A DNA stretch of 31,276 nucleotides. It comes from a virus. The stretch covers positions 1-31,276 of IMG/VR virus record IMGVR_UViG_3300020469_000163; one strand, given 5' to 3'. Below the pieces are notes generated by a model. It saw nothing but the letters and a program-made list of their open reading frames with translations, did not search any database and was not told the origin of the DNA. Each line of letters begins with the position of its first letter. Positions within the stretch are counted from its first letter, which is position 1. A program made the translations under genes and the position numbers. Shown here piece after piece: positions 1,964 through 26,257 of this stretch.

Positions 1964-2220
1964 TGGCTACGCCTAGACAGGGTAAGGCTCGCGTCAAGGT
2001 TACGGCGTCGGGTAAGCGTGTAAGTTATGGACAGGCTGGCAAGGCTAAGGGCGGCGGCCCCCGGGTTCGAGCCGGGACATCTAAGGGCGACAGTTATTGT
2101 GCCAGATCGCTAGGCATCAAGAAGCGGTTGCCGGCGTCAAAAAGGAACAACCCAAACACGCCAAACAATTTGAGCAGAAAGCGCTGGAAGTGCTCTGGCG
2201 CGAAATCGAGACGCAGCTAG
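1963..2220 (+). CDS. Small basic conserved phage protein, 85 aa
   Basis: An 85-residue basic protein with a patterned N-terminus (MATPRQGKARVKVTASGKRV, then YGQAGKAKGGGPRVRAGTSKG) and a central SYCARSLGIKKRLP segment, ending in NLSRKRWKCSGAKS. The two cysteines and the final RKKW-C-GKKS-like tail are features I recall in a conserved phage family of unknown function found beside the previous protein. It starts in the TAATG overlap at 1963. Virion association or DNA binding is plausible because of the charge, but unproven. The overlapping frame at 2097-2285 is a shadow. Confidence 0.8.
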   Translation: MATPRQGKARVKVTASGKRVSYGQAGKAKGGGPRVRAGTSKGDSYCARSLGIKKRLPASKRNNPNTPNNLSRKRWKCSGAKSRRS

Positions 2221-2230
2221 GGAGAATAGA

Positions 2231-2362
2231 ATGGTGCGTAATGTGTATGGCTCAGCCCACGACGATGAGATTGCCGAGCGGCTGACTAAAGCGTTTGAGA
2301 ATGAAAAGAAGAAGCCGAAGACTAAGACTAAAACGGCTGCTAAGAAAAAAGGAAAGAAATAA
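2231..2362 (+). CDS. Very small Lys-rich protein, 43 aa
   Basis: A 43-residue ORF (MVRNVYGSAHDDEIAERLTK start) ending in a Lys/Thr tail, KKKPKTKTKTAAKKKGKK. A ribosome binding site, AGGGAGAATAG, lies just upstream, and the stop overlaps the ATG of the next gene (TAATG at 2360-2364). It is the third short basic protein in a row after the portal. No family recognised. Base composition and tight coupling with both neighbours support it being real. Confidence 0.65.
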   Translation: MVRNVYGSAHDDEIAERLTKAFENEKKKPKTKTKTAAKKKGKK

Positions 2363-2952
2363 TGGCCCTCAATATCGATGGTATCAGCCTCACACCGATC
2401 CAGTCTGGCTTCAATCCCGACTACTCGATCATTCGCCCGGAGTATGGCGGCGCCGGTCTTCTGGACGACGGTAATAGCCCGGAGTATCGCGACCTAATCA
2501 ACAACTTTGCTGGCGGTATACTGAACGGCTATCAGGTGATTGATAATCAGGTTGTACCAATCAACCCGTCTGGCATTTACACCGGGTCTGGCATGGGCAA
2601 CGACCCCAACATGTCAATGGAAGACGAAGGCGGTGACGGCGCATTTACCATTATGGATCTTATGGATTTTCAAACTGCCATGGGTCAGGCTAATTTTGGC
2701 AATCAGGACCCGGTGTCTGCGTTCCAGATGTTTGAGGATAAAGGCAAAGGCACATTTGATATACGAGCCGGTTCACCTTATTCCAATCTGCTCTTTGGCG
2801 TTAACGAGATGGGCGAGCGGGTTCCTCTTAATATGGCTGTCGATAAGAGGGGGAATCAATTATCACCCCAACTAGTCAGAAACCGTATTAAATCATCGTT
2901 TAGTTTAATCGACGAGTCAGGTGGTGATGGTGGCGGTGACGGTGGAGACTGA
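2362..2952 (+). CDS. Hypothetical head-region protein, 196 aa
   Basis: A 196-residue acidic protein starting MALNIDGISLTPIQSGFNPD, rich in Gly, Asp and Asn, with a low-complexity GGDGGGDGGD C-terminus. It has no signal peptide, no clear transmembrane segment and no motif I can name. The ATG overlaps the stop of the preceding small basic gene, and its 3' end overlaps the next gene by about 26 bases. Its place between portal and scaffold suggests a head or DNA-packing accessory role, which is inference from position only. Confidence 0.72.
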   Translation: MALNIDGISLTPIQSGFNPDYSIIRPEYGGAGLLDDGNSPEYRDLINNFAGGILNGYQVIDNQVVPINPSGIYTGSGMGNDPNMSMEDEGGDGAFTIMDLMDFQTAMGQANFGNQDPVSAFQMFEDKGKGTFDIRAGSPYSNLLFGVNEMGERVPLNMAVDKRGNQLSPQLVRNRIKSSFSLIDESGGDGGGDGGD

Positions 2953-3220
2953 TAGATCCCCCGAGTGGACAGCTGCCGACGCGACACGGTTAATAAATGA
3001 CCCTGTATTAAAAGAATGCTTTGACGCCTATGAGAAGGCGTTAGTCGAGCGCGCTATTGAGGCCCCTGCCCGGGACGACGACGCTCGCACCCGGTGCATG
3101 ATGGCGATCCAAACATTACGGCGAGTGAAAAAAAATCTAGACCGATTGATATTCGACGGCAAGTCTGCCGCGATGCAGGCCGCTGATAATATCGCCACGG
3201 GCGAGGATCAGTGGAGTTAA
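2927..3220 (+). CDS. Hypothetical helical protein between portal and scaffold
   Basis: A protein of about 97 residues, mostly alpha-helical and charged, with VLKECFDAYEKALVERAIEA and RCMMAIQTLRRVKKNLDRLI as its most regular stretches. I chose ATG 2927; an in-frame GTG at 2921 or 2936 is possible, because the region is a run of GTG/ATG codons within the Gly-rich tail of the upstream gene. I recall similar short proteins in the portal-scaffold interval of related phages, with no known role. A gap of 48 bases then leads to the scaffold gene. Confidence 0.72.
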   Translation: MVAVTVETDRSPEWTAADATRLINDPVLKECFDAYEKALVERAIEAPARDDDARTRCMMAIQTLRRVKKNLDRLIFDGKSAAMQAADNIATGEDQWS

Positions 3221-3268
3221 CGTAACCGAGGATAAGCCGGTACGGCCCCTCTTTCCAAAGGATAATAA

Positions 3269-4204
3269 ATGAGTGACGAAACAGTCCTTTCCGACGAGGA
3301 AAGGTTTGAAAGCCTTTTGGCGGCTGAAGAGCAACCAGAAGCCGAGGTCCCAGTGGATGCTGGGGAAACCGTCGAAGAAGAAACTGAGGAGCTTGAAGGC
3401 GAAGAGCTGGAAGCTTCTGAAGACCAATTGGATGACGAAGAGACGACCGAAGAGGAACCTGAGCCCGAGGAACCCGCAGACGACGGCGTGATTGAATTTA
3501 CGCTTCAGAACGGGGAAACCATTCGGACCACGAAGGATGATTTGGCTGGTAGCTACTTACGACAATCCGATTACACGCGAAAGACACAAGAGTTGGCTTC
3601 CGAAAGGAGAGACTTTGAAGCCCAGAAAGTAGAGGTTGAGAATTATCTTCGTGAGCAGATAAATCAAGTTACTCAACTGCAACAAGCTGAACCTGACGAA
3701 AATTATTGGGCAGCCCTCTATGAAGAGGACCCGATTGGCGCTCCGAAAATTGAACGCGATTATCGTGTTCAGAAGGAACAGCGAGACAGATTGATTAACG
3801 AACAGAATCAACGGCAACAACAAATGTTTCAGCAAAAGGTGCAATCAGAGGCGCAGCAACTGCCCAACCTGATACCTGCTTGGTCTGACGCAGATGTTAA
3901 GGCCCGAGAGACTGGCGAGCTAAGCCGGTTCCTTGTTGGACAAGGGTTCGCCCCCCAAGATGTGAACATGGTATCGGACGCAAAGCTTGTACACATGCTG
4001 TACAAAGGCATGCGAATGATACAGCTTGAGACAAATGCTCCAAAGGTCGTGAATAAAAAAGTGGTCGGCAAACCCAAGGTGATTAAACCTAATGCCGCCT
4101 CACCTAAACGACGACCTCGGTCGGAAATAGCCAAAGCTAGTGAAAGCGCGAGATCAACCCAAACCAATGAGGCTTGGGCTGACGTTTTCGAGAAAATCTT
4201 GTAA
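3269..4204 (+). CDS. Capsid scaffolding protein
   Basis: A 311-residue protein with the usual scaffold layout. A very acidic N-terminal third (runs of Glu and Asp, residues about 10-70) is followed by FTLQNGETIRTTKDDLAGSY and YTRKTQELASERRDF, then a Gln-rich coiled coil, and a basic C-terminal segment (KKVVGKPKVIKPNAASPKRR) that in scaffolds often contacts the coat protein. A good ribosome binding site (AAAGGATAATAA) precedes the ATG. It sits directly before the major capsid gene. It should direct procapsid assembly and then leave the head. The assignment rests on composition, the QNGE...YTRK pattern and position. Confidence 0.85.
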   Translation: MSDETVLSDEERFESLLAAEEQPEAEVPVDAGETVEEETEELEGEELEASEDQLDDEETTEEEPEPEEPADDGVIEFTLQNGETIRTTKDDLAGSYLRQSDYTRKTQELASERRDFEAQKVEVENYLREQINQVTQLQQAEPDENYWAALYEEDPIGAPKIERDYRVQKEQRDRLINEQNQRQQQMFQQKVQSEAQQLPNLIPAWSDADVKARETGELSRFLVGQGFAPQDVNMVSDAKLVHMLYKGMRMIQLETNAPKVVNKKVVGKPKVIKPNAASPKRRPRSEIAKASESARSTQTNEAWADVFEKIL

Positions 4205-4224: not shown

Positions 4225-4575
4225 ATGGCTACTCCAGCGAATACAGTCATTGAGTCAACGCGAGTAAATCGCGAGGAGTCAGTGCAAAATACGATTCGAG
4301 ATATATCTCCTCTCGATACCCCCATGTTAACCATGGCTAAAGAAGTCAAACTTACTGCTCGGTATTCGGAATTTTTGACGGATGCGCTTTCCGCAGTGGA
4401 TGCTTCCAATGCCCACCTTGATGGTGACAATGATACGATTGCTGCAAGTCCAGCAGTCACCAGACTCGCTAACAGAACACAGATCGTTAAAAAGACTGCC
4501 GCCGTTAGTGGAACTACTGAAGCCGTAAACTTATATGGTACAAAATCAGAATTAGCGTACCAGATGGCCAAGCGT
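4225..4575 (+). CDS. Major capsid protein, exon 1
   Basis: First 117 codons of the major capsid protein, which builds the icosahedral shell. The start MATPANTVIESTRVNREESV with NTIRDISPLDTPM is typical of the capsid proteins of such podoviruses. Reading continues to TKSELAYQMAKR (CGT at 4573-4575); homologues as I recall them run straight on from MAKR into a KELKRD-type helix. Here the frame enters a 261-nt insert and meets TAG at 4597, so an unspliced message gives only a 124-residue fragment. The missing continuation is at 4837. Exon 1 ends in T, as a group I 5' splice site needs. Ribosome binding site TGAGGAAAAAACA precedes the ATG. Confidence 0.9.
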
Positions 4576-4836
4576 TATTCTATGAGCGCAGCCGCGTAGC
4601 GATACGCGGTTAAAAATACTGGGTGAATTGCTGGAAAGCCTAAGTCGAAAGATAAGGTAATCAGCAGCCAAGCTATCACATGATAGAAGGTTCAACGACT
4701 ATCCGAGAGGAGTACAACCTAAGTAGGTTGGAAGCGCCCAGCATCTCTATGAGATGATGATATAGTCTCAACTCGTATCCGAAAGGTCGAGCTACGAAAG
4801 TAGGTTTTGGCGTAACGAGCCAATGCAAAGATATTG
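4576..4836 (+). ncRNA. Group I self-splicing intron (IA-like) in the major capsid gene
   Basis: A 261-nt insert with the full set of group I pairings found by eye. P1: exon GCGT 4572-4575 with GCGC 4586-4589 (U.G at the splice site). P2: 4592-4598/4603-4609, GCGA loop. P3: 4619-4625/4735-4741. P4: 4629-4633/4662-4666. P5: GCCT 4638-4641/AGGT 4655-4658. P6: 4673-4677/4682-4686. P7: GACTAT 4697-4702/ATAGTC 4762-4767. P8: 4742-4747/4751-4756. P9: 4772-4775/4788-4791 with a GAAA loop. A GAAA hairpin (4792-4803) and a TTGGC/GCCAA hairpin (4807-4823) follow. The terminal G is 4836. Extra stems between P7 and the 3' strand of P3 (CC-GAGA-GG at 4703-4710 and CAACC/GGTTG at 4715-4730) match P7.1/P7.2 of subgroup IA. 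It carries no homing endonuclease ORF. Confidence 0.93.
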
Positions 4837-5478
4837 TCTAAGGAACTAAAACGAGACATGGAAACCATTATGATGGGCAAGCAGGCATCGACTGCCGGCT
4901 CAGCATCAGCGGCTGCAAAGCTCGGAGCTCTACAGGGCTACATGAGTGCAGGCATTGGTAACATTGTCTATTCTGGCGCAAAAGGCTCGGCTACCACACC
5001 GGGTTGGAGCGGTGGTAACACTGGTGCAATTGTAAATCCATCTGCAACTGCAGCACTAGATGAGACTAAGTTCAAAAGTCTTGTGAAGCTCTGCTATGAC
5101 AACGGCGCAGAAAACGCCGACGTGTTCATGGTTGGATCTTTTAACAGGCAGAAGGCAAGTCAGTTTCAGGGAATCGCAGATTTATACCGGGAAACTAACA
5201 CTCGTCCTACTGCTTCGATACTCGGGACCGCGTCGGTCTATATTTCCGACTTTTCAGGACCCGCCGGGATCAAGATAGTAAGTAACAGGTTCCAGTCTTC
5301 GGACGTTGGAATGCTGATCGACATGGACATGGTCCAAGTCGGTTTCTTGAGACCATACACAAGCTATGAGTTGGCTAAAACCGGGGATTCAACTGCTCGC
5401 AGTTTAGTTGCGGAATTCAGTATTCTGCCGATTTCACCCGAAAGTCACGGTAAGATTGTTGGCTTAACTGTAGCCTAA
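4837..5478 (+). CDS. Major capsid protein, exon 2
   Basis: The C-terminal 213 residues of the major capsid protein, beginning SKELKRDMETIMMGKQAST. The frame is also open from a TTG at 4834, but that codon ends in the intron's terminal G and has no ribosome binding site, so this is not an independent gene. Joined to exon 1 at a codon boundary it gives MAKR-SKELKRD and a 330-residue protein, a normal size for this family. Typical capsid features include GNIVYSGAKGSATTPGWSG, KLCYDNGAENADVFMVG, the SVYISDFSGPAGIKIVSNR strand region and the late FLRPYTSYELAKTGDS segment. A perfect intrinsic terminator follows at once. Confidence 0.9.
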   Translation, partial: SKELKRDMETIMMGKQASTAGSASAAAKLGALQGYMSAGIGNIVYSGAKGSATTPGWSGGNTGAIVNPSATAALDETKFKSLVKLCYDNGAENADVFMVGSFNRQKASQFQGIADLYRETNTRPTASILGTASVYISDFSGPAGIKIVSNRFQSSDVGMLIDMDMVQVGFLRPYTSYELAKTGDSTARSLVAEFSILPISPESHGKIVGLTVA

Positions 5479-5529: not shown

Positions 5530-5874
5530 ATGGAAAAGTGGAGACCTCTGGACGAGGACAACACTAAGGTCGAGTTGTTCTATTACGACGACGACACGCA
5601 GACCCAACACGTTAAAACCGTGTACAAACACACCGACGTTATTGTCGATGCGAATAAAGCGATACAGGGAACGCAGGCAGGCCGAGACGCCGAGAACCAT
5701 TTCTGGGAAGTGGCGCGGATACCGCCAAGCATACAGCACCTTTGGCTGAAGGAAGGCCTAGACATTTACAACCGCGAGCATGGCGCCCGGTTGATGAAAA
5801 AGCTCGATGACCCGGAGTGGAAATATCTAAGGGTGCAGACTGGCAGAATAGGCAATAGATCAGGTCACATATGA
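5530..5874 (+). CDS. Conserved hypothetical protein after the capsid gene
   Basis: A 114-residue soluble protein, MEKWRPLDEDNTKVELFYYD at the start and a WLKEGLDIYNREHGARLMKK region followed by LDDPEWKYLRVQTGRI. I recall proteins with this last pattern (a short domain ending in a DP-x-YRYLRT-like stretch) directly downstream of capsid genes in marine phages; their function is not known to me. I chose ATG 5530 because the ribosome binding site AAGGGAG at 5517-5523 is spaced correctly for it, while an ATG at 5524 abuts that site. The stop overlaps the next ATG (ATGA). Confidence 0.75.
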   Translation: MEKWRPLDEDNTKVELFYYDDDTQTQHVKTVYKHTDVIVDANKAIQGTQAGRDAENHFWEVARIPPSIQHLWLKEGLDIYNREHGARLMKKLDDPEWKYLRVQTGRIGNRSGHI

Positions 5875-7181
5875 ACATCATTGAACATCTTGACGAGGAG
5901 CTTTCGTACAATACTGAAGACTGGCTCTCTGCAACAAAGCTGGGCGCGGCCTATTTGAAAATGGGCAAACTGAGCCACGCATATGCATTTACGGCCATGG
6001 CTCTAGGGATCGAGCAGAACGCGATCACGTTAATCGAAACTGGCCGCGTGTTATCGGCCATGGGGCGTTGGAAAGAGGCGCTTAGTTTTTTCGAGGCAGC
6101 GGCTGACAAGGACCCAAAGAATATAGAGGCGGCGAATAACGCGGCCCTAGCCCACCTTAACCTTGGCGACCATGACAAGGGCGCCGAGTGGCTAATGCGC
6201 CCATTTACTAAAATGAGCAAGAAGGAATACGACGCAGCTGATACACGCGAGCTCGACTGGAACTGGTCGTTTGTGCATCTGGCCCGGGGCGACTATCGCA
6301 AGGGCTGGGCGGCGTGGAATAAAGGCGAAGGTCATGGCGACAGAGTGCCGCGTCATACATACCTGCCACGATGGCGCCCTGGGGATGAGGGCGGCGTGGT
6401 CTTTTATGGCGAACAGGGGCTGGGCGATCAGATTATGTTTGCCGAGTGTTTATACGATGCAGTGGGTGACGTGAAAGGCCCGTCGGTTGTTGAGGTTGAC
6501 CAGCGCTTGGCTGGCTTGTTTCAGAGATCATTCCCGGATCAGCAAGTCATGGGAACATTGAATAAAGAGGACGCCGGCTGGAAGGCGCCAGCTGGTAGCG
6601 GTCGCATACCATTAGGATCACTGCCTGAGTATTATCGACCGTCAGGAGCGAGCTACCGGGGGCATCCCTATTTGTTGGCGTGTCCCGATCGCAAGTTAAT
6701 GATGAGACAGCTGCTCGGCTCGATGGGCAAGCAGCAGAAAATCGGCATTAGCTGGACTGGCGGTTTGAGAAACACTGGCGGCGTTGATCGCTCGCATGAA
6801 TTAAAAAAGTTGATGGCAAGTTTCAAACGTATCGACGCTAAATTTGTTTCGCTTGAACACACACATTTTGATATTCCAGAACAACACGGCGTCAAGGCGT
6901 TTGATTACATCACCGGCAGAGAGTTGGACTACGATAATACAGCGGCACTAGTCAGCGAGCTGGACCTCGTTGTCAGCGTCCCTAATACGGTCGTTCATCT
7001 TGCCGGCGCTCTTGGCGTTCAGACGTTGGTCCTGGGGTCTAAGGCGCCAAGCTACTGTCACACGGTAATGAATTTACCGCTCTATAATTCGGTTGAAACG
7101 CTAAACGATTGGACCCCCGCCACGGCGGCCAAACGCATAAAGGATAAGCTTGATGGCATTGTCAAATTACGGCGAGCTTAA
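5871..7181 (+). CDS. TPR-repeat protein with glycosyltransferase-like (GT-B/GT9-type) domain
   Basis: A 436-residue protein in two parts. Residues about 5-125 contain tetratricopeptide-type helix pairs (LGAAYLKMGKLSHAYAFTAM; MGRWKEALSFFEAAADKDPK; AALAHLNLGDHDKGAEWL). From about residue 170 it resembles the GT-B fold proteins related to ADP-heptose transferases: a first nucleotide-fold start (VVFYGEQGLGDQIMFAECL), a second domain starting KIGISWTGGL, and the late DLVVSVPNTVVHLAGALGV motif, which corresponds to the sugar-nucleotide-binding D-x2-x-x-D/N-T-x-x-x-H-x-A-G-A pattern of that group. It may glycosylate a virion or host surface component, or have lost catalysis. It overlaps both neighbours. 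Confidence 0.75.
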   Translation: MNIIEHLDEELSYNTEDWLSATKLGAAYLKMGKLSHAYAFTAMALGIEQNAITLIETGRVLSAMGRWKEALSFFEAAADKDPKNIEAANNAALAHLNLGDHDKGAEWLMRPFTKMSKKEYDAADTRELDWNWSFVHLARGDYRKGWAAWNKGEGHGDRVPRHTYLPRWRPGDEGGVVFYGEQGLGDQIMFAECLYDAVGDVKGPSVVEVDQRLAGLFQRSFPDQQVMGTLNKEDAGWKAPAGSGRIPLGSLPEYYRPSGASYRGHPYLLACPDRKLMMRQLLGSMGKQQKIGISWTGGLRNTGGVDRSHELKKLMASFKRIDAKFVSLEHTHFDIPEQHGVKAFDYITGRELDYDNTAALVSELDLVVSVPNTVVHLAGALGVQTLVLGSKAPSYCHTVMNLPLYNSVETLNDWTPATAAKRIKDKLDGIVKLRRA

Positions 7182-7782
7182 AGCGTCAATCGCTGACACG
7201 CTTAATCGTACAGATATGGATAATCAGATTAAAGATTCGATTGCTCTATGCGATGCGATGATTAATCGCGACCCTAAATATTTTAACCGAAGAATGGAGA
7301 CGACCGCCACGTTAACATTTGACGCGGCTGGCGAGGCTTCGTTACCGGCTGACTATATCGCGGCTCGCACGGTTGTTTTTCAATCGAGCCCAAAGAGCAA
7401 TCTGACGTTTTTATCGGCGAGCGCATTTGACACTTTGTACACGACGAGCACTGCCGGCCTGCCGATCAATTACACAATCCTTGGCGAAAAGTTAAAAGCC
7501 GGCCCAGTGCCTAATAGCGCTAGTGGAGCGGTGCTACGATACTACCAGAGGATTACGGCGTTATCTGCCGACAGCGATACGAACTGGTTGTTAACATATT
7601 ACCCGGACATTTACTTGTACGGCAGTCTCGTTCATACGGCGCCATATCTGGGCGAAGACGCAAGACTTCAGACATGGTTTGGATTGCTAGACCGGGCGTC
7701 GGCTGAGTTGGCTGGCGAAGATTCCCGGGCTCGCTTTTCGGGCGCTCCTGTAGCACCTAGCGTGAACGTGACCATCGTATGA
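7153..7782 (+). CDS. Head-tail adaptor protein (SU10-adaptor-like)
   Basis: A 209-residue protein beginning MALSNYGELKASIADTLNRT. The N-terminal helix (a short disordered start, then SYGELKxxIAxxLNR-like), the central strand region with TFDAAGEASLPADYIAARTV and the C-terminal LRYYQRI...NWLLTYYPDIYLYGSL...APYLGED...LQTWF series match the adaptor family named after phage SU10. Such proteins sit under the portal and connect it to the tail nozzle. ATG 7153 is chosen over the TTG at 7150. It overlaps the glycosyltransferase-like gene by 29 bases. Confidence 0.8.
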   Translation: MALSNYGELKASIADTLNRTDMDNQIKDSIALCDAMINRDPKYFNRRMETTATLTFDAAGEASLPADYIAARTVVFQSSPKSNLTFLSASAFDTLYTTSTAGLPINYTILGEKLKAGPVPNSASGAVLRYYQRITALSADSDTNWLLTYYPDIYLYGSLVHTAPYLGEDARLQTWFGLLDRASAELAGEDSRARFSGAPVAPSVNVTIV

Positions 7783-8049: not shown

Positions 8050-11000
8050 ATGGCTACACCAACAAGCAGATTAAAATTAAAGAAACAGACCCTCGGGTCC
8101 AATCTAAACCAGTGGGGTTTGAGCGGCGGGTTAAACGGTGCCTTCGATCAGGTTGACGTTCTTGCCGGTTACCTTGAGGTCAATCTAGGCTCAGCAACTA
8201 GCTACACATTTGGCACGACCAACTATGCTACGACGGGCAATGAGCACATGTATCGTGCCGTTAAGTTTAGCGGCTCGCCATCATCTGGCGTGACTGTAAA
8301 TATCCCGGCTGTAGATGATTTCAAATTTGTTGAGAATGCTACCGGGCAGACGATTACATTTTCCAATGGTTCCACGACTGCTACCTTGGCGAATACTTTT
8401 ACAGGTTACATCCGAACCAATGGCAGCTCGGTCATAACGGTCCTGACGTTGCCTGACGGCGTCAACGTAAAAACTGTGGCTGACAATATTGCCTCAGTGA
8501 ACCAAGTCGCGACTGACTCGGCGTCAGTAATTGCAGTGGCCGGGAAATCAACTGAGATAGGGCGATTGGGTACGGTTGATGCGGTGGCTGATATGGCGCT
8601 GCTAGGAACTACAGCGAACGTGGCGGCTCAAGCTTTATTGGGAACCAGCGCAAACGTCACGGCCCAAGGTCATCTTGGAACATCTGCTAATGTAACAGCC
8701 CAAGGTCATCTTGGAACCAGCGCTAATGTGGCGGCTCAGGCTTTGATTGGAACTAGCGCTAATGTAGCTGCTCAAGCATTAATTGGAACTTCTGCGAACG
8801 TGGCCGCTCAGGCGTTGATTGGAACGTCAGCGAATATAGCTATTCAAGCGTTGATGGGAACGACTGCAAATATTGCCGCCCAAGCGTTAATCGGAACTAC
8901 AGCGAACGTGGCGGCTCAGGCATTAATTGGAACAACGGCTAATGTAGATGCTCAAGCTCTTATTGGGACATCTGCAAATATTACAGCCCAAGCATTAATT
9001 GGAACTAGTGCAAACGTGGCCGCTCAGGCCTTAATTGGGACATCAGCAAACGTGGCCGCTCAGGCGCTTATTGGAACAACGGCTAATGTGAATGCTCAGG
9101 CCTTAATTGGAACGTCAGCAAATATTGCGGTTCAGGCGCTTCTAGGTACAAGTGCAAACGTAGCAGCGATGGCTCTGCTAGGGACGTCATCCAATATCAC
9201 AAATATGTCCAATTTGGGAACAACTCAAAATGTTTCCAATATGAATACATTGGCTCCGATAAGTGGAGACATCACCACAACGGCGGGTGTATCAACGGCG
9301 GTCACTGCTTACTCCAAACAGTACAGCGCGGGAAATGGGGACATCTCAACTCGCGCAGACGGGACGGGAACGGTCGCTGAAGGGGATCTTAGATTCAGAA
9401 CCGACACAGATACTATGCGAGTTTACAACGGCTCTGCTTGGGAAGATGCAGCGCCGGGAGCCGGGAACTATTACACAAAATCGGATTCCGATACTCGTTA
9501 TGCACAGGTGTCAAATAATCTGTCTGACGTAACGGCAACAACCGCCAGAACCAATTTAGGTTTAGATCCATTATTGGCGGCAAAAGCTCCATTAGCCTCG
9601 CCAGCATTAACTGGTTCTCCAACTGTCAACGGCGTTGCAATAGCCACAGGAACATCTGACTCAACGTTGGGAACGCTAACCCAAGCATTTACGGCTGGAC
9701 AGCAAACGACAATCAATCTGTCATCAAATGCGCTCTCTCCAAGTGTCGCAGTGACCAAGGAAGTTCCACAAACAGGCGTTACTAACAACCAATGGAACGT
9801 GGATTCCGCTGGCAGTGGAAATTACACACGATATAACACCGCGCCAGCTACAACGATTTCTTTTTCTGGTACGACAGCAACGCTTGGAAGCGGTTCGTTT
9901 TCTGCATCTGACGTAGGAAAAACAATAGAAGTCAACAATGGCAAGCTAATTTTAACAAATGTCAACGGTACATTCTCCGTTGCATCAACACCTGACAATT
10001 ACAACCAAGCCGCCAGTGGTGCGTGGCAAATGTACGGCTTAAAGTTTAACACTGCCGACACCGATTTAGAAGTTAGTAACACTCTTACAAACGCATACGA
10101 TTTATCAACAGCGGTATGGTCAAAAAAATATGACCATGTAGGCGTAACACAACCTAATGCGATGGAGTGGGTAGACAGCGGAACTAAGCTATTCGTTTTA
10201 AATACATTTAACAATACTGTGTATTCTTATACTGCATCAACGCCGTATGATGTTGGGTCATTAGTATATGTTGACCAAAGAACTGTTTCATCAGGCGATA
10301 ATAGCAATATGGGTATGGCTGTTAAACCAGATGGAACTGTTTTGTATGTTATTGGGACGCAATGGAATGCGGTATACTCATTCAATATGACTACGCCGTT
10401 CGACTTGTCTTCAGCCCCCTCGCAATATAATTCTTATTTTAGTTGTAATACTCAATTAAGCGGCGGGTCGGTTTCAGCACATTCTTTATTTTTTAAGCCT
10501 GATGGCACGGCTTTTTATGTGAATGGCTATAGCACGGCAACAGGTCGAGTATATCAATACAACCTAAACACAGCATGGGATATTACGACTGCGAGTTATT
10601 CCAACTACGGCCCAGCAGTTGTAAATTACAACCAAGGATTAACCTTTAACTCCGATGGCACACGGTTTTATATAGGAGAGCGAGGCGGTAAAACGATCCG
10701 CACATATCAAATAAATAATACGCCGTGGTCGCTTTACGATGTAAGCGGCCCAATTGCTTCATTCTCAGTAAGTAGCCACATTGATTATCCAGATGGTTTA
10801 ACATTTAATAATGACGGGAGTAGGTTCTATGTAACTGGGCCTAGTCGAGATGATATTGTCCAATGGGATGTTGGTAGCCTGCTTGCCCCAAGTGGATACC
10901 ATGCCGCGCACACAACGAACTCAATTGATAGCTCTACTTGGACTGACATAAATTCAATGACGGCCACAGATTCCGCTGGCACTGGCACAGTAAATTACGC

Positions 11001-12252
11001 TGTCTCAACTGACGACCGCACGACTTGGAAAATTGCACACAATACATCTGGCGCGAGAAACATTGTCAAAAATGCTAGTGGCACTTGGCAGTATAACTCA
11101 AACGGAACATATGGTTCTGAAACTTGGGTAAATGGTTCAACAAACAACGAGTTGGCTACACTTCAACAGGCAATGGAAGGGGCCGTATCAGTTACCAATG
11201 CTTATGCAATTTCTAATGCAACCGCTGGATACGGAGCAGTGTTTTCCGTTTCGACATACATGAGCGACCCTCGCGATATAGAATTTAGTGCTGATGGTTT
11301 AAAAATGTTCACCGTTGGGAGAACTGTTAATGCAGTTGTAGAGTGGCATCTGTCTACAGCCTTTGACTCGTCTACAGCGGTTTACGACAGCAATTTCAGT
11401 GTTTCTAGTCAAGAAGCTAACCCTACGGCATTAGCCTTTAAGCCTGACGGCACAAAAATGTATGTGGCTGGGCCAACTACTGGAAGTTTACAAGAGTATA
11501 ATTTATCGACAGCGTTTGACGTTTCAACTGCAAGTTATGTGCAAGGTTTTGCAATTTTTAATCAAGCCGCTAGTCCAGAAGGCATAGCTTTCAACAACGA
11601 TGGAACCAAAGTTTTTATTTCTGGAACTGGCAATGACGGAGTCAGAGAATGGTCACTGTCTACAGCATATGACGTAAGCACGATGTCGTACACTAGAGCA
11701 TTAACTGGTCTAGCATCTTCTAATTTGGGCGGTATAGCTTTTAATGCTGATGGCACTGAAATGTATCTTGGTTTCTGCAACAACTTTGACAGGTTGTATA
11801 AATACCAATTAAGCACTGCATTTGATATATCAACCGCTTCTGTAACAACTTATGTTGATTTAGGTAGCTACCAAAATGATATGAGAGGGATTTGTTTCAA
11901 TCCTAGTGGCACAAAACTTTTTACCATTGACCCAAATTTAGATAGAGTTTCTCAATATACACTTGGTTCATCTTCATTTGCGAATCAAATGAATAAAACC
12001 CAGCTAGACGCTGTATCAGACGCAAATCAATTTGGAGTGAGTGATGACCTAGACCTCGCCATTATTCTAAATCTCCCAAGCGGAACAGGCGTACCGTCTT
12101 CAGATGGCGTAAGCATAAATTATGACGCTAATGTAGCCAACCAAGGCGCAATTCTGGGGCCTAATGGCGATTATACCTATGACGTACCCGCCTTAAATAA
12201 AATCAGAATCACCGCCGTCAATGCGGCCACGTTAAAAATCAGAGTTGTTTAG
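8050..12252 (+). CDS. Giant tail fibre / receptor-binding protein, 1400 aa
   Basis: The N-terminus (residues 1-140) is an attachment domain of the kind MATPTSRLKLKKQTLGSNLN with a pelago-like beta region. Residues 173-400 are 19 tandem 12-residue units (see repeat feature). Residues about 430-540 contain GTVAEGDLRFRTDTDTMRVY and YYTKSDSDTRYAQVSNNLSD, classic fibre signatures. From residue about 680 there are two sets of about five beta-propeller-like blades, each with an F-x-PDGT-x-(M/F)-YV core and a Y-x-LSTAFD-(V/I)-S-TAS strand, separated by a linker of about 100 residues. The distal half is visibly richer in A+T than neighbouring genes and lacks CCCGGG sites, suggesting a recombined receptor-binding module. 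Confidence 0.9.
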   Translation: MATPTSRLKLKKQTLGSNLNQWGLSGGLNGAFDQVDVLAGYLEVNLGSATSYTFGTTNYATTGNEHMYRAVKFSGSPSSGVTVNIPAVDDFKFVENATGQTITFSNGSTTATLANTFTGYIRTNGSSVITVLTLPDGVNVKTVADNIASVNQVATDSASVIAVAGKSTEIGRLGTVDAVADMALLGTTANVAAQALLGTSANVTAQGHLGTSANVTAQGHLGTSANVAAQALIGTSANVAAQALIGTSANVAAQALIGTSANIAIQALMGTTANIAAQALIGTTANVAAQALIGTTANVDAQALIGTSANITAQALIGTSANVAAQALIGTSANVAAQALIGTTANVNAQALIGTSANIAVQALLGTSANVAAMALLGTSSNITNMSNLGTTQNVSNMNTLAPISGDITTTAGVSTAVTAYSKQYSAGNGDISTRADGTGTVAEGDLRFRTDTDTMRVYNGSAWEDAAPGAGNYYTKSDSDTRYAQVSNNLSDVTATTARTNLGLDPLLAAKAPLASPALTGSPTVNGVAIATGTSDSTLGTLTQAFTAGQQTTINLSSNALSPSVAVTKEVPQTGVTNNQWNVDSAGSGNYTRYNTAPATTISFSGTTATLGSGSFSASDVGKTIEVNNGKLILTNVNGTFSVASTPDNYNQAASGAWQMYGLKFNTADTDLEVSNTLTNAYDLSTAVWSKKYDHVGVTQPNAMEWVDSGTKLFVLNTFNNTVYSYTASTPYDVGSLVYVDQRTVSSGDNSNMGMAVKPDGTVLYVIGTQWNAVYSFNMTTPFDLSSAPSQYNSYFSCNTQLSGGSVSAHSLFFKPDGTAFYVNGYSTATGRVYQYNLNTAWDITTASYSNYGPAVVNYNQGLTFNSDGTRFYIGERGGKTIRTYQINNTPWSLYDVSGPIASFSVSSHIDYPDGLTFNNDGSRFYVTGPSRDDIVQWDVGSLLAPSGYHAAHTTNSIDSSTWTDINSMTATDSAGTGTVNYAVSTDDRTTWKIAHNTSGARNIVKNASGTWQYNSNGTYGSETWVNGSTNNELATLQQAMEGAVSVTNAYAISNATAGYGAVFSVSTYMSDPRDIEFSADGLKMFTVGRTVNAVVEWHLSTAFDSSTAVYDSNFSVSSQEANPTALAFKPDGTKMYVAGPTTGSLQEYNLSTAFDVSTASYVQGFAIFNQAASPEGIAFNNDGTKVFISGTGNDGVREWSLSTAYDVSTMSYTRALTGLASSNLGGIAFNADGTEMYLGFCNNFDRLYKYQLSTAFDISTASVTTYVDLGSYQNDMRGICFNPSGTKLFTIDPNLDRVSQYTLGSSSFANQMNKTQLDAVSDANQFGVSDDLDLAIILNLPSGTGVPSSDGVSINYDANVANQGAILGPNGDYTYDVPALNKIRITAVNAATLKIRVV
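8566..9249 (+). repeat. Tandem 36-bp repeat array encoding 12-residue units in the fibre
   Basis: Nineteen consecutive 36-bp units in frame. The protein consensus is L/I-G-T-S/T-A-N-V/I-A-A-Q-A-L; the first unit (LGTVDAVADMAL) and the last two (LGTSSNITNMSN, LGTTQNVSNMNT) are degenerate, and 16 central ones are nearly uniform. Third-base changes are frequent while residues are conserved, so the array looks maintained at protein level. This fits a long triple-helical or beta-helical stalk. Confidence 0.92.
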
Positions 12253-19635: not shown

Positions 19636-22271
19636 TGGCACTAAGAGACGAATACGGCTTGGCGCCAAGAGGCCTGCTTGGAACCCGGCCAGATATGATT
19701 AGCGAGAACCAGCAGTTGCGTGGATTAAATGCACCCGGTTACGCCGCGCATATGGCTGGCTACATGATCCCCGGGTCAGGGCTTCTTGATGCTGGAGGTG
19801 GATATCCAGCTATGCCCGGGATGGGTGGTAAAAACCCATTTGGTCCTTCGTTACTTGAAAGCATTAAAAACAGTGACTATGCGTATGCGCTTGGTCAGGG
19901 TATAGGGTCCGTTGGCGATATGCTACAGTTTGCCGGCCCTCTAGCGGTCGCTGGTACGGCGCTAAAAGCAGCGTCTGCCCCATTAAGATCGTCTGCTAAT
20001 ATTAGCAAGCTTACCCGGGGGATTACGGGCGGCGGTAAGACGCCAGATAGTAGCCGTTTAAACTCCCAAGCTCTTACACCCAATTCAATCGGATCGGGTC
20101 CGAATACTGCAACCGCTCCTACACCCAAGCCGGGATTTAACGATATACTCAAAGGGCAAACATTAACCGATTTAGTATCAGGTCAAAGGCCTGTTCGAGG
20201 GCAGACCAATAAAGAGCTGGTCGCCATGCAAAAGGCCGAGCTAACAGCTCCCCAGCTGGCTAAGATTGATGGGCTTAAAACAACGCACCCATCTGTATAT
20301 AAGGCCAGCCAATACATGTTGCCCGGAGAGGTCACGCAGTTAATCGGGTCACAGAAGAACATCGAAGCGGCAGAGCGATTGTTGGGTGTTCTCCCACCCG
20401 CGAAAGAAATGACGGCTTTGGCTAAAGTTGGCGGGGCAAAGCGAGGATGGTACAGGGCATCTACGCAGGCGCTGGTCGATGTATTTGGCGACGACGCCCC
20501 AAGGTTCAGCGCGTTGCTTGCAGCCACGTCACCTCAAACATCAGTCGAATCAAACTTGGCGAACTCGCTAAACATTTGGAAAAACTGGACAGCGGCGGGA
20601 CGACCTACAGAGCGAGAAGCTATCCTAGATATTATGGGCGCCAGTGTGCAGGGTGATAAGGGTAGAGATTCTGTTTTAGGGGCGTGGGAAAATAATACAG
20701 TCACTGCCCTAGGAACAAATAATCCAGCAGACATAAAACTGGATCTGGATAGCATCCGATTATCTGGCGCCAAAGTTGATAGTTTTATGCGGAACCTGTC
20801 TGACGACGTGTACAAGTTTACAAACGATGCTTGGATGGCAAACATTTTAGGCGTCGAGCAAAGCCTGTTCCAAGGCGGCGGTAAAGGACCACCCGGTTAT
20901 CATGTTGTATCGGCGTATGGCAGACAGGTAGGTAATTCTATAGGGTTGACGCCGCGAGAGATGCAAGAGACTGCATGGACCGCTGGTATGGCATTACTAG
21001 AAGGCGCTAAGAGCCAAGGCATCCCGGTTACCGAGATGGTCGATAAGCTTACCCGAAAAGATATTTTGGCTACCCCGGATTTTGCGACACTGTTTCAAGA
21101 GCCCGGGACTAGAAAAATATTATCTGAAGCTGGGTATGGGTCGAAGGTTGATAAATTAAAGGCGTTTAATTTTCCACCCGATCAGCCCTTAACTAAGGCT
21201 GAAAGAAAAGATGCTTTAAAGGCAGCGCAACGGTTGCAAGAGTTGGCGCAGATCCGAAAAGCCGATAGTACTGTCAAAACATTAACCATGAAAGATTACG
21301 AAGCGGTCGTTAATAATATTTTTGAAGCTGTACCGGGTCGATCAACGGGCGTGCTAACAGGGTTAGCAGATGCCCCAGAGAACGTCAGGAAAAATTATTC
21401 TCAACAGGCATTTAAAGCGCTTACCGATCAACGCGGCGTCGATATTTTAAATAAAGGGGTTGGCTTAGACACTGGTAGAACCTTGCGGGGGCAAGGCATG
21501 TACATTGATGATACAGGTGTGCCGCAATACAACCCATCTGCCAATGCACCAACTGTGTCTCAATTAACAGCATCTGGCAATCTTACAAAACCTGACCAAG
21601 ATCGATTGCAAGCAGTCGCCAATCTGAGGGGCGGCCTTTTGGCGCAAGAAGGAACGCCTATCAATGCCATTCAACCTGACCCTAAAGGGGTGGAGAATAT
21701 AATACCTAGGGATAAAGGGGCTGGCGTTCAGCCTATGATGGATGCGGCAAGTATTCTACCGCCAAATTATGCGGCTACAGACACAGGAAAAGGTATTGGT
21801 TTGTTAGACATTAGCGGAGATACCCCGGAACAATTACCGCAAGGAACTATTAAAAAAATAACTGGGTTATTGCAGGCAGATCAGAAGAACCCGTTACCGC
21901 CTGTTACAGTCGATAGAGTGTTTGGTGATTATATCGATTATACAGACGAATTTGCTCAGGGAATTGGTAGTCAGGCAGTTGTTAAAAAAATGTTTGATTC
22001 ACTCAACAAGCTTTCCAGTAAGGTTTTTAACAGGCTTGACAATAGTCAGACGCGGTTAATGGCTAAAGATTTACATGACCTCAATGAAAAAACCGCCGCC
22101 AAGAACAATCTACCTTTGAGAGAAGATCACCAAAATATGCTGAAGATCATCTACGAAAAAGGATTGAAAGGCTTGAAGGCGGCGGTCGGTACGAAAGAAT
22201 TATTGCCTTCTATTTTTGTGATCGGGCTTGGCGCGAAACTTTTCCAGCAACATTCTGGATCGGATTCATAA
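19635..22271 (+). CDS. Large internal virion protein with a conserved domain of unknown function
   Basis: An 878-residue protein, the largest of the internal set. The first 120 residues are Gly/Pro/Ala-rich with hydrophobic helices. Residues about 180-470 are a compact conserved domain: KASQYMLPGEVTQLIGSQKN, GWYRASTQALVDVFGDDAPR, LLAATSPQTSVESNLANSLN, IWKNWTAAGRPTEREAI, then KVDSFMRNLSDDVYKFTNDA-WM and QETAWTAGMALLEGAKSQG. I recall this domain in marine phage internal proteins (catalogued I think as DUF7178), without known activity; conserved SPQTS, TNDAW and QETAW motifs suggest an enzyme. The C-terminal part is helical. A minus-strand gene overlaps its last 62 bases. Confidence 0.7.
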   Translation: MALRDEYGLAPRGLLGTRPDMISENQQLRGLNAPGYAAHMAGYMIPGSGLLDAGGGYPAMPGMGGKNPFGPSLLESIKNSDYAYALGQGIGSVGDMLQFAGPLAVAGTALKAASAPLRSSANISKLTRGITGGGKTPDSSRLNSQALTPNSIGSGPNTATAPTPKPGFNDILKGQTLTDLVSGQRPVRGQTNKELVAMQKAELTAPQLAKIDGLKTTHPSVYKASQYMLPGEVTQLIGSQKNIEAAERLLGVLPPAKEMTALAKVGGAKRGWYRASTQALVDVFGDDAPRFSALLAATSPQTSVESNLANSLNIWKNWTAAGRPTEREAILDIMGASVQGDKGRDSVLGAWENNTVTALGTNNPADIKLDLDSIRLSGAKVDSFMRNLSDDVYKFTNDAWMANILGVEQSLFQGGGKGPPGYHVVSAYGRQVGNSIGLTPREMQETAWTAGMALLEGAKSQGIPVTEMVDKLTRKDILATPDFATLFQEPGTRKILSEAGYGSKVDKLKAFNFPPDQPLTKAERKDALKAAQRLQELAQIRKADSTVKTLTMKDYEAVVNNIFEAVPGRSTGVLTGLADAPENVRKNYSQQAFKALTDQRGVDILNKGVGLDTGRTLRGQGMYIDDTGVPQYNPSANAPTVSQLTASGNLTKPDQDRLQAVANLRGGLLAQEGTPINAIQPDPKGVENIIPRDKGAGVQPMMDAASILPPNYAATDTGKGIGLLDISGDTPEQLPQGTIKKITGLLQADQKNPLPPVTVDRVFGDYIDYTDEFAQGIGSQAVVKKMFDSLNKLSSKVFNRLDNSQTRLMAKDLHDLNEKTAAKNNLPLREDHQNMLKIIYEKGLKGLKAAVGTKELLPSIFVIGLGAKLFQQHSGSDS

Positions 22272-22458
22272 GTCGTTTTCTGATATCCTTCTCAACGTCC
22301 GAGGGTGGCTTGCGCCACCGCCATAACGAGAAGTCTCCTATCAGAGCCTCGCCAGTGTCTGGGTCAGTAAACTCGACTGTCAAAAAGTATTCGTCTTTAT
22401 AGTCATAGGTGACGCTGTCTTTTTCAAAATCTACGATTTTAGGGGATGGTTCATACAT
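22210..22458 (-). CDS. Small hypothetical protein on the minus strand
   Basis: An 82-residue protein, MYEPSPKIVDFEKDSVTYDY to a basic C-terminus, with a central EFTDPDTGEALIGDFSLWRW segment. It is supported by a strong ribosome binding site (AAGAAGGAG) about 8 bases before the ATG at 22458. Its 3' end overlaps the end of the large internal virion gene in antisense by 62 bases. It is the only minus-strand gene between the late modules, so it is probably expressed separately. No family recognised. A promoter is not obvious. Confidence 0.6.
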   Translation of the reverse strand: MYEPSPKIVDFEKDSVTYDYKDEYFLTVEFTDPDTGEALIGDFSLWRWRKPPSDVEKDIRKRLMNPIQNVAGKVSRQARSQK

Positions 22459-22561
22459 GGTTCATGCTCCTTCTTTAGTGCTTTTGGCGGTATGCCACGG
22501 CGCACAATCTAGGTTCAAATGCCGACCCACCCAATATAGTTATTCTGCGAGGTAAATGCAA

Positions 22562-24952: not shown

Positions 24953-24966
24953 CTTGTAATGCTTAT

Positions 24967-25000
24967 CCCGAGTCTATATATGTATATGTGTAGATTCGGG
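24967..25000 (+). promoter_or_regulatory. Inverted repeat upstream of integrase
   Basis: CCCGAGTCTA (24967-24976) pairs with TAGATTCGGG (24991-25000), nine Watson-Crick pairs plus one G.U, across a 14-base TA-rich spacer. It sits 25 bases before the integrase ATG. It may be an operator or an mRNA hairpin affecting integrase expression, or a core-type att element. Confidence 0.5.
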
Positions 25001-25024
25001 ATGATAAATTATTGGAGAGACAGT

Positions 25025-26257
25025 ATGAACAGGATGACAGAATCAAAATTGGAAAACTTGCACAAAGGCCTCAGCGTATCCAAGCGCATCAATTGTGGCT
25101 TCAACCTCTACGTCCAAGTATCACCGAAGGGCGCCAAGAGTTTTATCTACAGAAAACGTGTCGGTCAGGCCGCCTATCAGCGAGGCCTCGGTGTCTGGCC
25201 AACGATAGCGGTAGACGTTGCCTACGCCAAGGCGCTCGAATACAACCAGCTATTGGCGTCAGGTGAGCACCTGCCCACGGCGATAAAAAAATCAGTCGCC
25301 CAAGGCCTGACTTGGATCGAGGCAGCAAAGAAATATCTGGAGCAACGCAAAGATATTTCTGCCGACCGGGTTAAAGCAATTTACAAGCGTGTCATTACCG
25401 ACATGACCGACGAGTTCAACAACCGTCCTATCATGGCGGTCGACAAGTCACACATTAAGGAAGCAATCTTACCATTCTGGGATATGCCTACTGCTAAGGA
25501 GCGCCTAAGCAACATTCAAGCGGTCTGGTACTTCGGTGTATCTGAGATCGACGTGGACGTGCCGGTCTCAAGCAAAATGGACGAGATCAAATCGACCCTG
25601 CCTAAGAACGCCAAGCGCGAGAAGGTCCACTACGGACAGCTATCATTTGCCGACTTGCAAAAGTGGCTCGCAGGTTTGGCTGGCAATAACACAATGCCTC
25701 AGCGCGACAAGGTAGCGGCTGAAGTTATTCTTCTAACCAACAAACGCCCATCTGAAATCTTGTTGGGTGAGTGGCATGAGATCGATTTTGACAACGCCAC
25801 ATGGACCATCCCGTCAGAGCGTTTAAAGATGGGCGGCGGCGACCATGTCATGCCGTTGAGCTCCCGGGTTATCGAGTTGCTAAAAGCTTGGCGCCAAAAT
25901 CCAGACAGTATCCGTCAGCATGTAAAAGGCGATTTTATTTTCCCTGCAAAAGGTAAAAAAGGTCACACGACTGCCGTTACCTTAAACAATCAGTTGGATA
26001 AATTTTATCCGCTAGGCACTGCTACGAATGGCGGTAAGGCCGTCGTCCATGGAACGGCGAGAGGCACGTTTAAAACTTGGTCGAAAGATCAGCTCGACGC
26101 CAATGAGAAGTATGTTTATGAGAATGACGCAGTGGAGCTACAGTTGGCTCACGCAGTCGGCAATGAAGTTGAGCGAGCATACAACACGGCTAATGGAATG
26201 ACGATGCGTCGTAAGCTTGTGGAAGACTATTCAGTGGCAGCCCGGGCGCTTTGTTAA
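25025..26257 (+). CDS. int: Tyrosine recombinase / phage integrase (P4 type)
   Basis: A 410-residue integrase for site-specific recombination between attP and attB. The N-terminal domain resembles the DUF4102 arm-binding fold of P4-type integrases (GFNLYVQVSPKGAKSFIYRK). The catalytic set is complete: R241 (TNKRPSEIL), K268 (RLKMGGG), H342 and R346 (VHGTARGTFKTW), H376 (LAHAVGNEVERAYN) and nucleophile Y386. I chose ATG 25025 because GGAG at 25014-25017 is ideally placed; the longer frame from 24959 adds 22 residues coded by the repeat region and is unlikely. Its last 4 bases overlap the convergent excisionase gene. Confidence 0.9.
   Translation: MNRMTESKLENLHKGLSVSKRINCGFNLYVQVSPKGAKSFIYRKRVGQAAYQRGLGVWPTIAVDVAYAKALEYNQLLASGEHLPTAIKKSVAQGLTWIEAAKKYLEQRKDISADRVKAIYKRVITDMTDEFNNRPIMAVDKSHIKEAILPFWDMPTAKERLSNIQAVWYFGVSEIDVDVPVSSKMDEIKSTLPKNAKREKVHYGQLSFADLQKWLAGLAGNNTMPQRDKVAAEVILLTNKRPSEILLGEWHEIDFDNATWTIPSERLKMGGGDHVMPLSSRVIELLKAWRQNPDSIRQHVKGDFIFPAKGKKGHTTAVTLNNQLDKFYPLGTATNGGKAVVHGTARGTFKTWSKDQLDANEKYVYENDAVELQLAHAVGNEVERAYNTANGMTMRRKLVEDYSVAARALC

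Follow-up and report, generated by a model that had tools for sequence, protein, structure and literature searches.

Capsid genes of phages are known to be interrupted by group I introns. In mycobacteriophage LittleE the splicing of a capsid intron was demonstrated by RT-PCR together with N-terminal sequencing (PMC3706429), and lactococcal phage Tuc2009 is cited as a capsid-intron case in the same paper (PMC3706429). In crAss-like phages the major capsid protein (MCP) gene is a typical intron site and may fall into up to five fragments (PMC7886860), while BAKA carries an intron that has no homing endonuclease gene (HEG) and whose splicing was demonstrated (PMC3706429). The original prediction of a capsid intron in the viral DNA considered here called such a placement unusual, which overstates the matter: LittleE, Tuc2009 and the crAss-like phages are precedents, and our searches have brought up further cases (contigs L007-L009, L098, L151-L153 and L011, and phage C72C1).

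The window that we analysed is the whole stretch of 31,276 nt of a viral IMG/VR record (IMGVR_UViG_3300020469_000163). We consider it highly probable that an SU10-type capsid gene of this phage is interrupted by a HEG-less, IA-like group I intron that would be self-splicing, and whose family would spread without an endonuclease of its own. The intron, at a position that we call site A, occupies 4576-4836 on the plus strand (261 nt, first base T, last base G). The Rfam model RF00028 matches 4569-4791 (+) over its full length with 91.5 bits against a gathering threshold of 50 (E 1.8e-22), which is the sole intron found by the Rfam scan of the window, and our own covariance model, among whose training sequences is the window intron itself, scores 4567-4837 at 245.8 bits. 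The above-threshold match to the full RF00028 model, a covarying fold and a clean join of the reading frame bear out the group I intron predicted at 4576-4836.

The capsid gene consists of exon 1 (4225-4575, +), which starts with the ORF at 4225 and ends with GCC AAG CGT, and exon 2 (4837-5478, +), which opens with TCT AAG GAA, both covered by the match to SU10_MCP. The joined product of 330 aa belongs to this family (5.2e-64, 217 bits against a cut-off of 24.1; Pfam), and the gene is flanked by an SU10 portal gene upstream and an SU10 adaptor gene downstream (Pfam). The SU10_MCP match of the joined protein agrees with the prediction that a major capsid gene is split. When aligned with relatives that are empty at site A, the joined protein is collinear with them, with no residue missing or added, and this 330-aa frame confirms the boundaries 4575 and 4837. 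Production of the capsid protein had been said to depend on splicing; as the capsid frame exists only with the intron removed, that much of the claim stands, and the dependence itself is a probable reading of the sequence.

The helices P1-P9.2 were assigned by hand on the window sequence, and all coordinates are of the plus strand. P1 brings the exon-1 GCGT and the first T of the intron (4572-4576) together with the internal guide sequence (4585-4589), has a U.G pair at the splice site and is supported by a compensatory change in introns of another site, B. It is followed by the P2 hairpin (4592-4609, loop GCGA), supported by covariation, and by the P3-P8 and P4-P6 core with the P7 pseudoknot, where P3 (5' strand 4619-4625, partner 4735-4741) has four of its seven pairs changed on both sides in homologues, P7 (5' strand 4697-4701, partner 4763-4767) is the guanosine-binding helix by homology, and P4 (4628-4633 with 4662-4667), P5 (4639-4641 with 4655-4657), the P6a hairpin (4673-4686) and the P8 hairpin (4742-4756) are supported by pairing and by the alignment of homologues. 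P9 (loop GAAA), P9.1 (loop GAAA) and P9.2 lie within 4772-4823, and the terminal G (omega G) is base 4836. Between P7 and P3 there is an additional stretch (4702-4730) that folds into two hairpins, P7.1 (loop GAGA) and P7.2, and it is from this insertion, and not from a subgroup-specific model, that we read the intron as one of subgroup IA. The pairings from P1 to P9, the U, the terminal G, the GNRA loops and the P7.1/P7.2 region are as had been predicted, with the correction that the loop of P7.1 is also of the GNRA type.

All 13 helices in the window are made of standard pairs only. Support for the fold was counted on seven homologous introns, with partners slid by 1-3 columns and 500 shuffles as controls: 88.5% of cells pair, against 34-44% in the slid controls, both sides are changed in 23 of the 65 pairs, and covariation scores 0.396, compared with 0.188 in shuffled data, none of the 500 shuffles being as high. 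Covariation is present in P3, P4, P8 and P7.2 and is clearest in P3, where CUGGG/CCCAG of the window turns into UCCCG/CGGGA in L007 and L009. As P7 is invariant across all homologues, covariation is silent on this helix, which is consistent with the fold only. P9 as aligned is paired in 28.6% of cells across subfamilies, its stem holding in the window's own subfamily only, and the figures for P9.1 and P9.2 are 85.7% and 100%.

In our reading the insert is a functional group IA intron that lacks a HEG and whose splicing is predicted. It might instead be a dead insertion, that is, an inactive intron in a broken capsid gene of a defective prophage or of an assembly artefact, and it fits this view that the contig is a fragment assembled from a metagenome and that it carries an integrase gene. 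We find it very improbable, however, as the core helices are all intact and show compensatory changes, the exons are open and join cleanly, and an intron of 94% identity occupies the same site in L008. Of the two words chosen earlier, minimal or decayed, the first fits better, the HEG being absent; the retained core, P1/P10 and GNRA loops, and recent moves between phages, speak against decay. Three other accounts of the insert were rejected: an intein, because the insert has an in-frame stop and an intein needs one open frame; a frameshift; and an assembly chimera, because L008 has the same insert independently.

The Rfam model stops before P9.1, P9.2 and the terminal G, and the 3' end of the intron therefore rests on the protein frame, the relatives and P10. 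The U before the 5' splice site pairs with a G in P1 and a G is the last base of the intron, both typical of group I. A combined score for P1 and P10 ranks the true site first among 978 positions of the joined window gene, and first or second in 10 of 11 other introns scored. Frame, U and G ends, and the P1 + P10 scan are three independent lines which agree on the splice sites. P10 of the window is imperfect, with 5 of 7 positions paired (the first, second, fifth and sixth and, marked by a colon, the seventh) and a score in the top 2.3% of positions; it is perfect or near-perfect in the introns of L009, of site A in L098 and of a further site, D.

Unspliced translation would be halted 22 nt into the intron, according to the reading-frame analysis, by an in-frame TAG (4597-4599) that reaches from the end of the 5' strand of P2 into the first base of its loop, inside P2 as was foreseen. 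Every intron examined, in seven lineages, has an in-frame stop at intron nt 6-22, ahead of the catalytic core. That all seven lineages have this early stop is unlikely to be accidental, the chance in random sequence being about 1/3 within eight codons, a cut-off which was chosen after the data had been inspected. We infer that ribosomes on exon 1 stop at this early codon, so that the core can fold unhindered, and splicing of T4 introns has reportedly been linked to translation in published work. We propose that the pre-mRNA is translated as far as the TAG in P2, which would keep ribosomes off the catalytic core; that the RNA folds, with P1 (GCGU with GCGC) and the terminal G setting the splice sites; that an external guanosine may then start the two transesterifications of the standard two-step group I reaction; and that the ligated exons would give the 330-aa capsid protein.

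An IMG/VR scan with the joined protein as query gave seven contigs with 87-92% identical capsid proteins. Site A is empty in L002-L007. In five of these (L002-L006) codon 262 is followed by a group I intron distinct from the window's (site B), the contig of L002 ending inside it, while L007, empty at both A and B, is interrupted after GAATTAGCGT, at a site A' that precedes A by 17 nt. L008 has introns at both A and B. All 8 contigs of the window's clade, the window included, thus carry at least one capsid intron, across three sites, and one carries two. The window keeps an unoccupied and intact A' (4542-4575, +; GAATTAGCGT followed by ACCAG, with the junction after 4558), a site occupied by a related intron in L007, in L009, whose capsid protein is 45% identical, and in phage C72C1. 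The prophage search of genome contigs gave a single relative, L098, a contig binned as Acidimicrobiaceae, with introns near codon 50 (site C) and at site A, the latter of another lineage than the window's. The fifth site, D, near residue 250, is occupied in L151-L153; the intron of L152 is 244 nt long and the spliced protein matches across the junction. By our alignments, SU10-type capsid genes carry predicted introns of the window's family at five sites (A, A', B, C and D), and the family would have entered them repeatedly.

Our covariance model detects an intron in 13 of the 103 SU10-type capsid loci searched, a count over non-random loci by a model trained on some of the positives. Outside the SU10 family, one coat-protein gene of PHROG 9953 (L011, 1900-3700, minus strand) is interrupted by three group I introns, its four exons, of which the second has only about 38 codons, having been aligned with an intron-free homologue from a Bradyrhizobium phage. 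A DNA pattern for the P7/P7.1 region matches 15 IMG/VR contigs, and the non-capsid matches look, from flanking frames only, like genes of DNA polymerase, ssDNA-binding protein, terminase and tape-measure protein. Because such contigs match, the family extends beyond capsid genes; the sample of 15 is too small and pattern-biased for claiming enrichment in capsid genes.

The introns are far more alike than the genes that carry them. At A' those of L007 and L009 share 95% nt identity against 51% for the coding sequences, at A those of the window and L008 share 94% against 79%, and at B the values are 98-99% against 88-95%. As intron identity is so far above that of the coding sequences, recent transfer is indicated, and by this measure the A' intron has moved recently between L007 and L009. 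The A' intron of L007 (1387-1670) also looks mosaic, its 5' half resembling the site A intron of the window and its P9 region the site B intron.

A possible trace of the route is found at site D, where comparisons were made for L151 and L152. L152 is 97.4% identical over the gene to the intron-free L144, and downstream of the site 10 of the 11 differences between them fall within 60 nt; compared with other empty alleles, 10 of the 10-17 downstream differences of L152 fall within the first 60 nt. As the pairs share history, these comparisons count as one event and not as nine. The pattern is as expected of co-conversion in DNA-based transfer, and it is at site D only that co-conversion appears clear, the test at site A being weak (p 0.02-0.11).

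This tract bears on a proposal that the introns moved between A and A' and to new sites not by DNA homing but by reverse splicing into RNA, followed by reverse transcription and recombination. The P1 target of 4 nt, GCGU, is common to A and A', which lie 17 nt from each other, and reverse splicing is thought to require 4-6 nt (PMC3984707); their introns are 70% identical overall, with closer 5' halves and the same GCGC guide, and in the A' introns P10 matches the intron's own 3' exon over 6-7 bp. The donor-type exon sequence beside the site D intron, though, fits DNA conversion and not insertion of intron RNA alone, the P1 score alone is reached at 2-5 places per gene, and the other lineage at site A in L098 makes independent arrivals at conserved codons also plausible. 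We hold reverse splicing to be unlikely.

Homing endonucleases were looked for in the introns and in the phage records. The longest open frame in the 261 nt of the window intron is 52 aa (39-63 aa in homologous introns), and there is no HEG within it, just as predicted. No homing endonuclease family is among the 25 commonest of the 28 Pfam families that match 69 proteins of the window and its relatives, and direct searches for HNH_3, HNH, GIY-YIG, LAGLIDADG_3 and NUMOD4 gave 0 matches in the phage records searched. The assembly of L098 (G013) has a single GIY-YIG match, on a different contig, in a 643-aa frame. With these five families and Pfam, neither the window nor the complete phage C72C1 nor contig G012 (40.7 kb) gave an endonuclease; of these and the other records, C72C1 is complete, the window and most others are fragments, and a free-standing HEG is possible beyond them.

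These searches weigh against homing in trans, in which empty alleles would be cut near these sites by an endonuclease from another part of the phage genome or from a co-infecting phage, and the introns would be copied in by repair; ordinary recombination in co-infection would, moreover, give the same pattern. Homing in trans has precedents in T4-like phages (PMC2988022; PMC3984707), and it would account for the co-conversion-like tract at site D and for insertions in the most conserved capsid stretch. The thyX intron of Alteromonas phage AD45-P1, the closest named relative, adjoins a homing endonuclease gene, and in the related phage L014 an HNH gene lies downstream of the capsid gene, at a distance of about 1.5 kb. 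We regard trans homing as a serious candidate that has somewhat less than an even chance of being the route. The family would, in our proposal, have spread with no endonuclease of its own, the most likely route being either homologous recombination or homing started in trans.

The occupancy of all 8 clade contigs, at three sites, also admits the idea that the intron is retained for a benefit to the phage, either because it disrupts a capsid-gene sequence that a competitor's endonuclease would cut or because it adjusts the timing of capsid production. An endonuclease of a phage intron is known to block a competing phage (PMC11620839), but a competitor's endonuclease for these sites is not known, the clade sample is eight contigs, and full occupancy could come from recent spread alone; such a benefit seems doubtful to us. 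With a similarly low degree of belief, we may speculate that in marine phages the SU10-type capsid gene is a standing hot spot where HEG-less group I introns hop between neighbouring conserved codons such as A and A', and that they stay at full occupancy in the window's clade because an occupied site would protect its carrier, for instance against endonucleases of co-infecting phages.

Several other features of the window were observed. A SAM-V riboswitch (RF01826) lies at 22464-22537 on the minus strand, with 44.5 bits against a threshold of 41, directly upstream of an 82-aa ORF (22210-22458, -), and the 3' end of the riboswitch contains an AAGGAG ribosome-binding site; relative L123 has the same riboswitch (7678-7747, -, 45.7 bits) with nearly the same ORF, and our literature search found no publication pairing SAM-V with a phage. 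The head-gene block contains a 436-aa ORF (5871-7181) with similarity to PHROG 36377, and TPR-repeat families match within the protein set that holds this ORF and its L122 counterpart, the member not being specified. A 1400-aa ORF (8050-12252) has many near-identical ALIGTSANVAAQ-type repeats near its N-terminus. An integrase gene (24959-26257; Phage_integrase and an arm DNA-binding domain) is also present, which suggests that the phage is temperate.

Should splicing proceed as predicted, a small phage without a driving endonuclease would rely on a ribozyme to make an abundant shell protein. Five sites, with single introns, a double one and 97% identical empty alleles, would make a natural system for studying how HEG-less introns move and what keeps them in a highly expressed gene. 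There is also a warning for annotators: in the record of C72C1 (OQ984150.1, L128) the intron-split capsid gene at 2154-3358 is entered as two separate 'major head protein' genes, with three spurious reverse-strand genes between the exons. In the literature searched, which mostly leaves subscription journals outside and makes this a weak negative, HEG-less introns at five capsid-gene sites, of which two are separated by 17 nt, were not found for a group of small phages of the SU10 type.

Compared with the introns described by RF00028, that of the window differs in nothing essential: it shares the full-length match, the core helices, the U before it and the G ending it, has a candidate P10 that is imperfect, and differs in having no HEG and short peripheral loops. 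LittleE likewise has its major capsid gene split with the spliced product in frame, but its intron is of 819 bp, with a HEG of LAGLIDADG type, in an HK97-type capsid gene of a siphovirus, and splicing was shown there while here it is predicted (PMC3706429). Closer in size is the tail-gene intron of BAKA and Optimus, 265 bp, also HEG-less and in a virion gene, RT-PCR-confirmed (PMC3706429), although gene and host group are other than the window's. The MCP introns of the crAss-like Delta and Zeta groups are of group I as well, lie in the capsid gene and may be several per gene; they were found mainly via endonuclease domains, whereas ours are HEG-less and belong to small SU10-type phages (PMC7886860). 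By sequence, the core half of the window intron has 77% identity to the thyX intron of Alteromonas phage vB_AmaP_AD45-P1 (KF005317), but the latter interrupts a thymidylate synthase gene and is accompanied by a homing endonuclease gene. Phage C72C1 (OQ984150), despite a much more distant capsid protein, has the same arrangement, a HEG-less intron of 251 nt in a capsid gene of the SU10 family, at A', 17 nt from the site occupied in the window.
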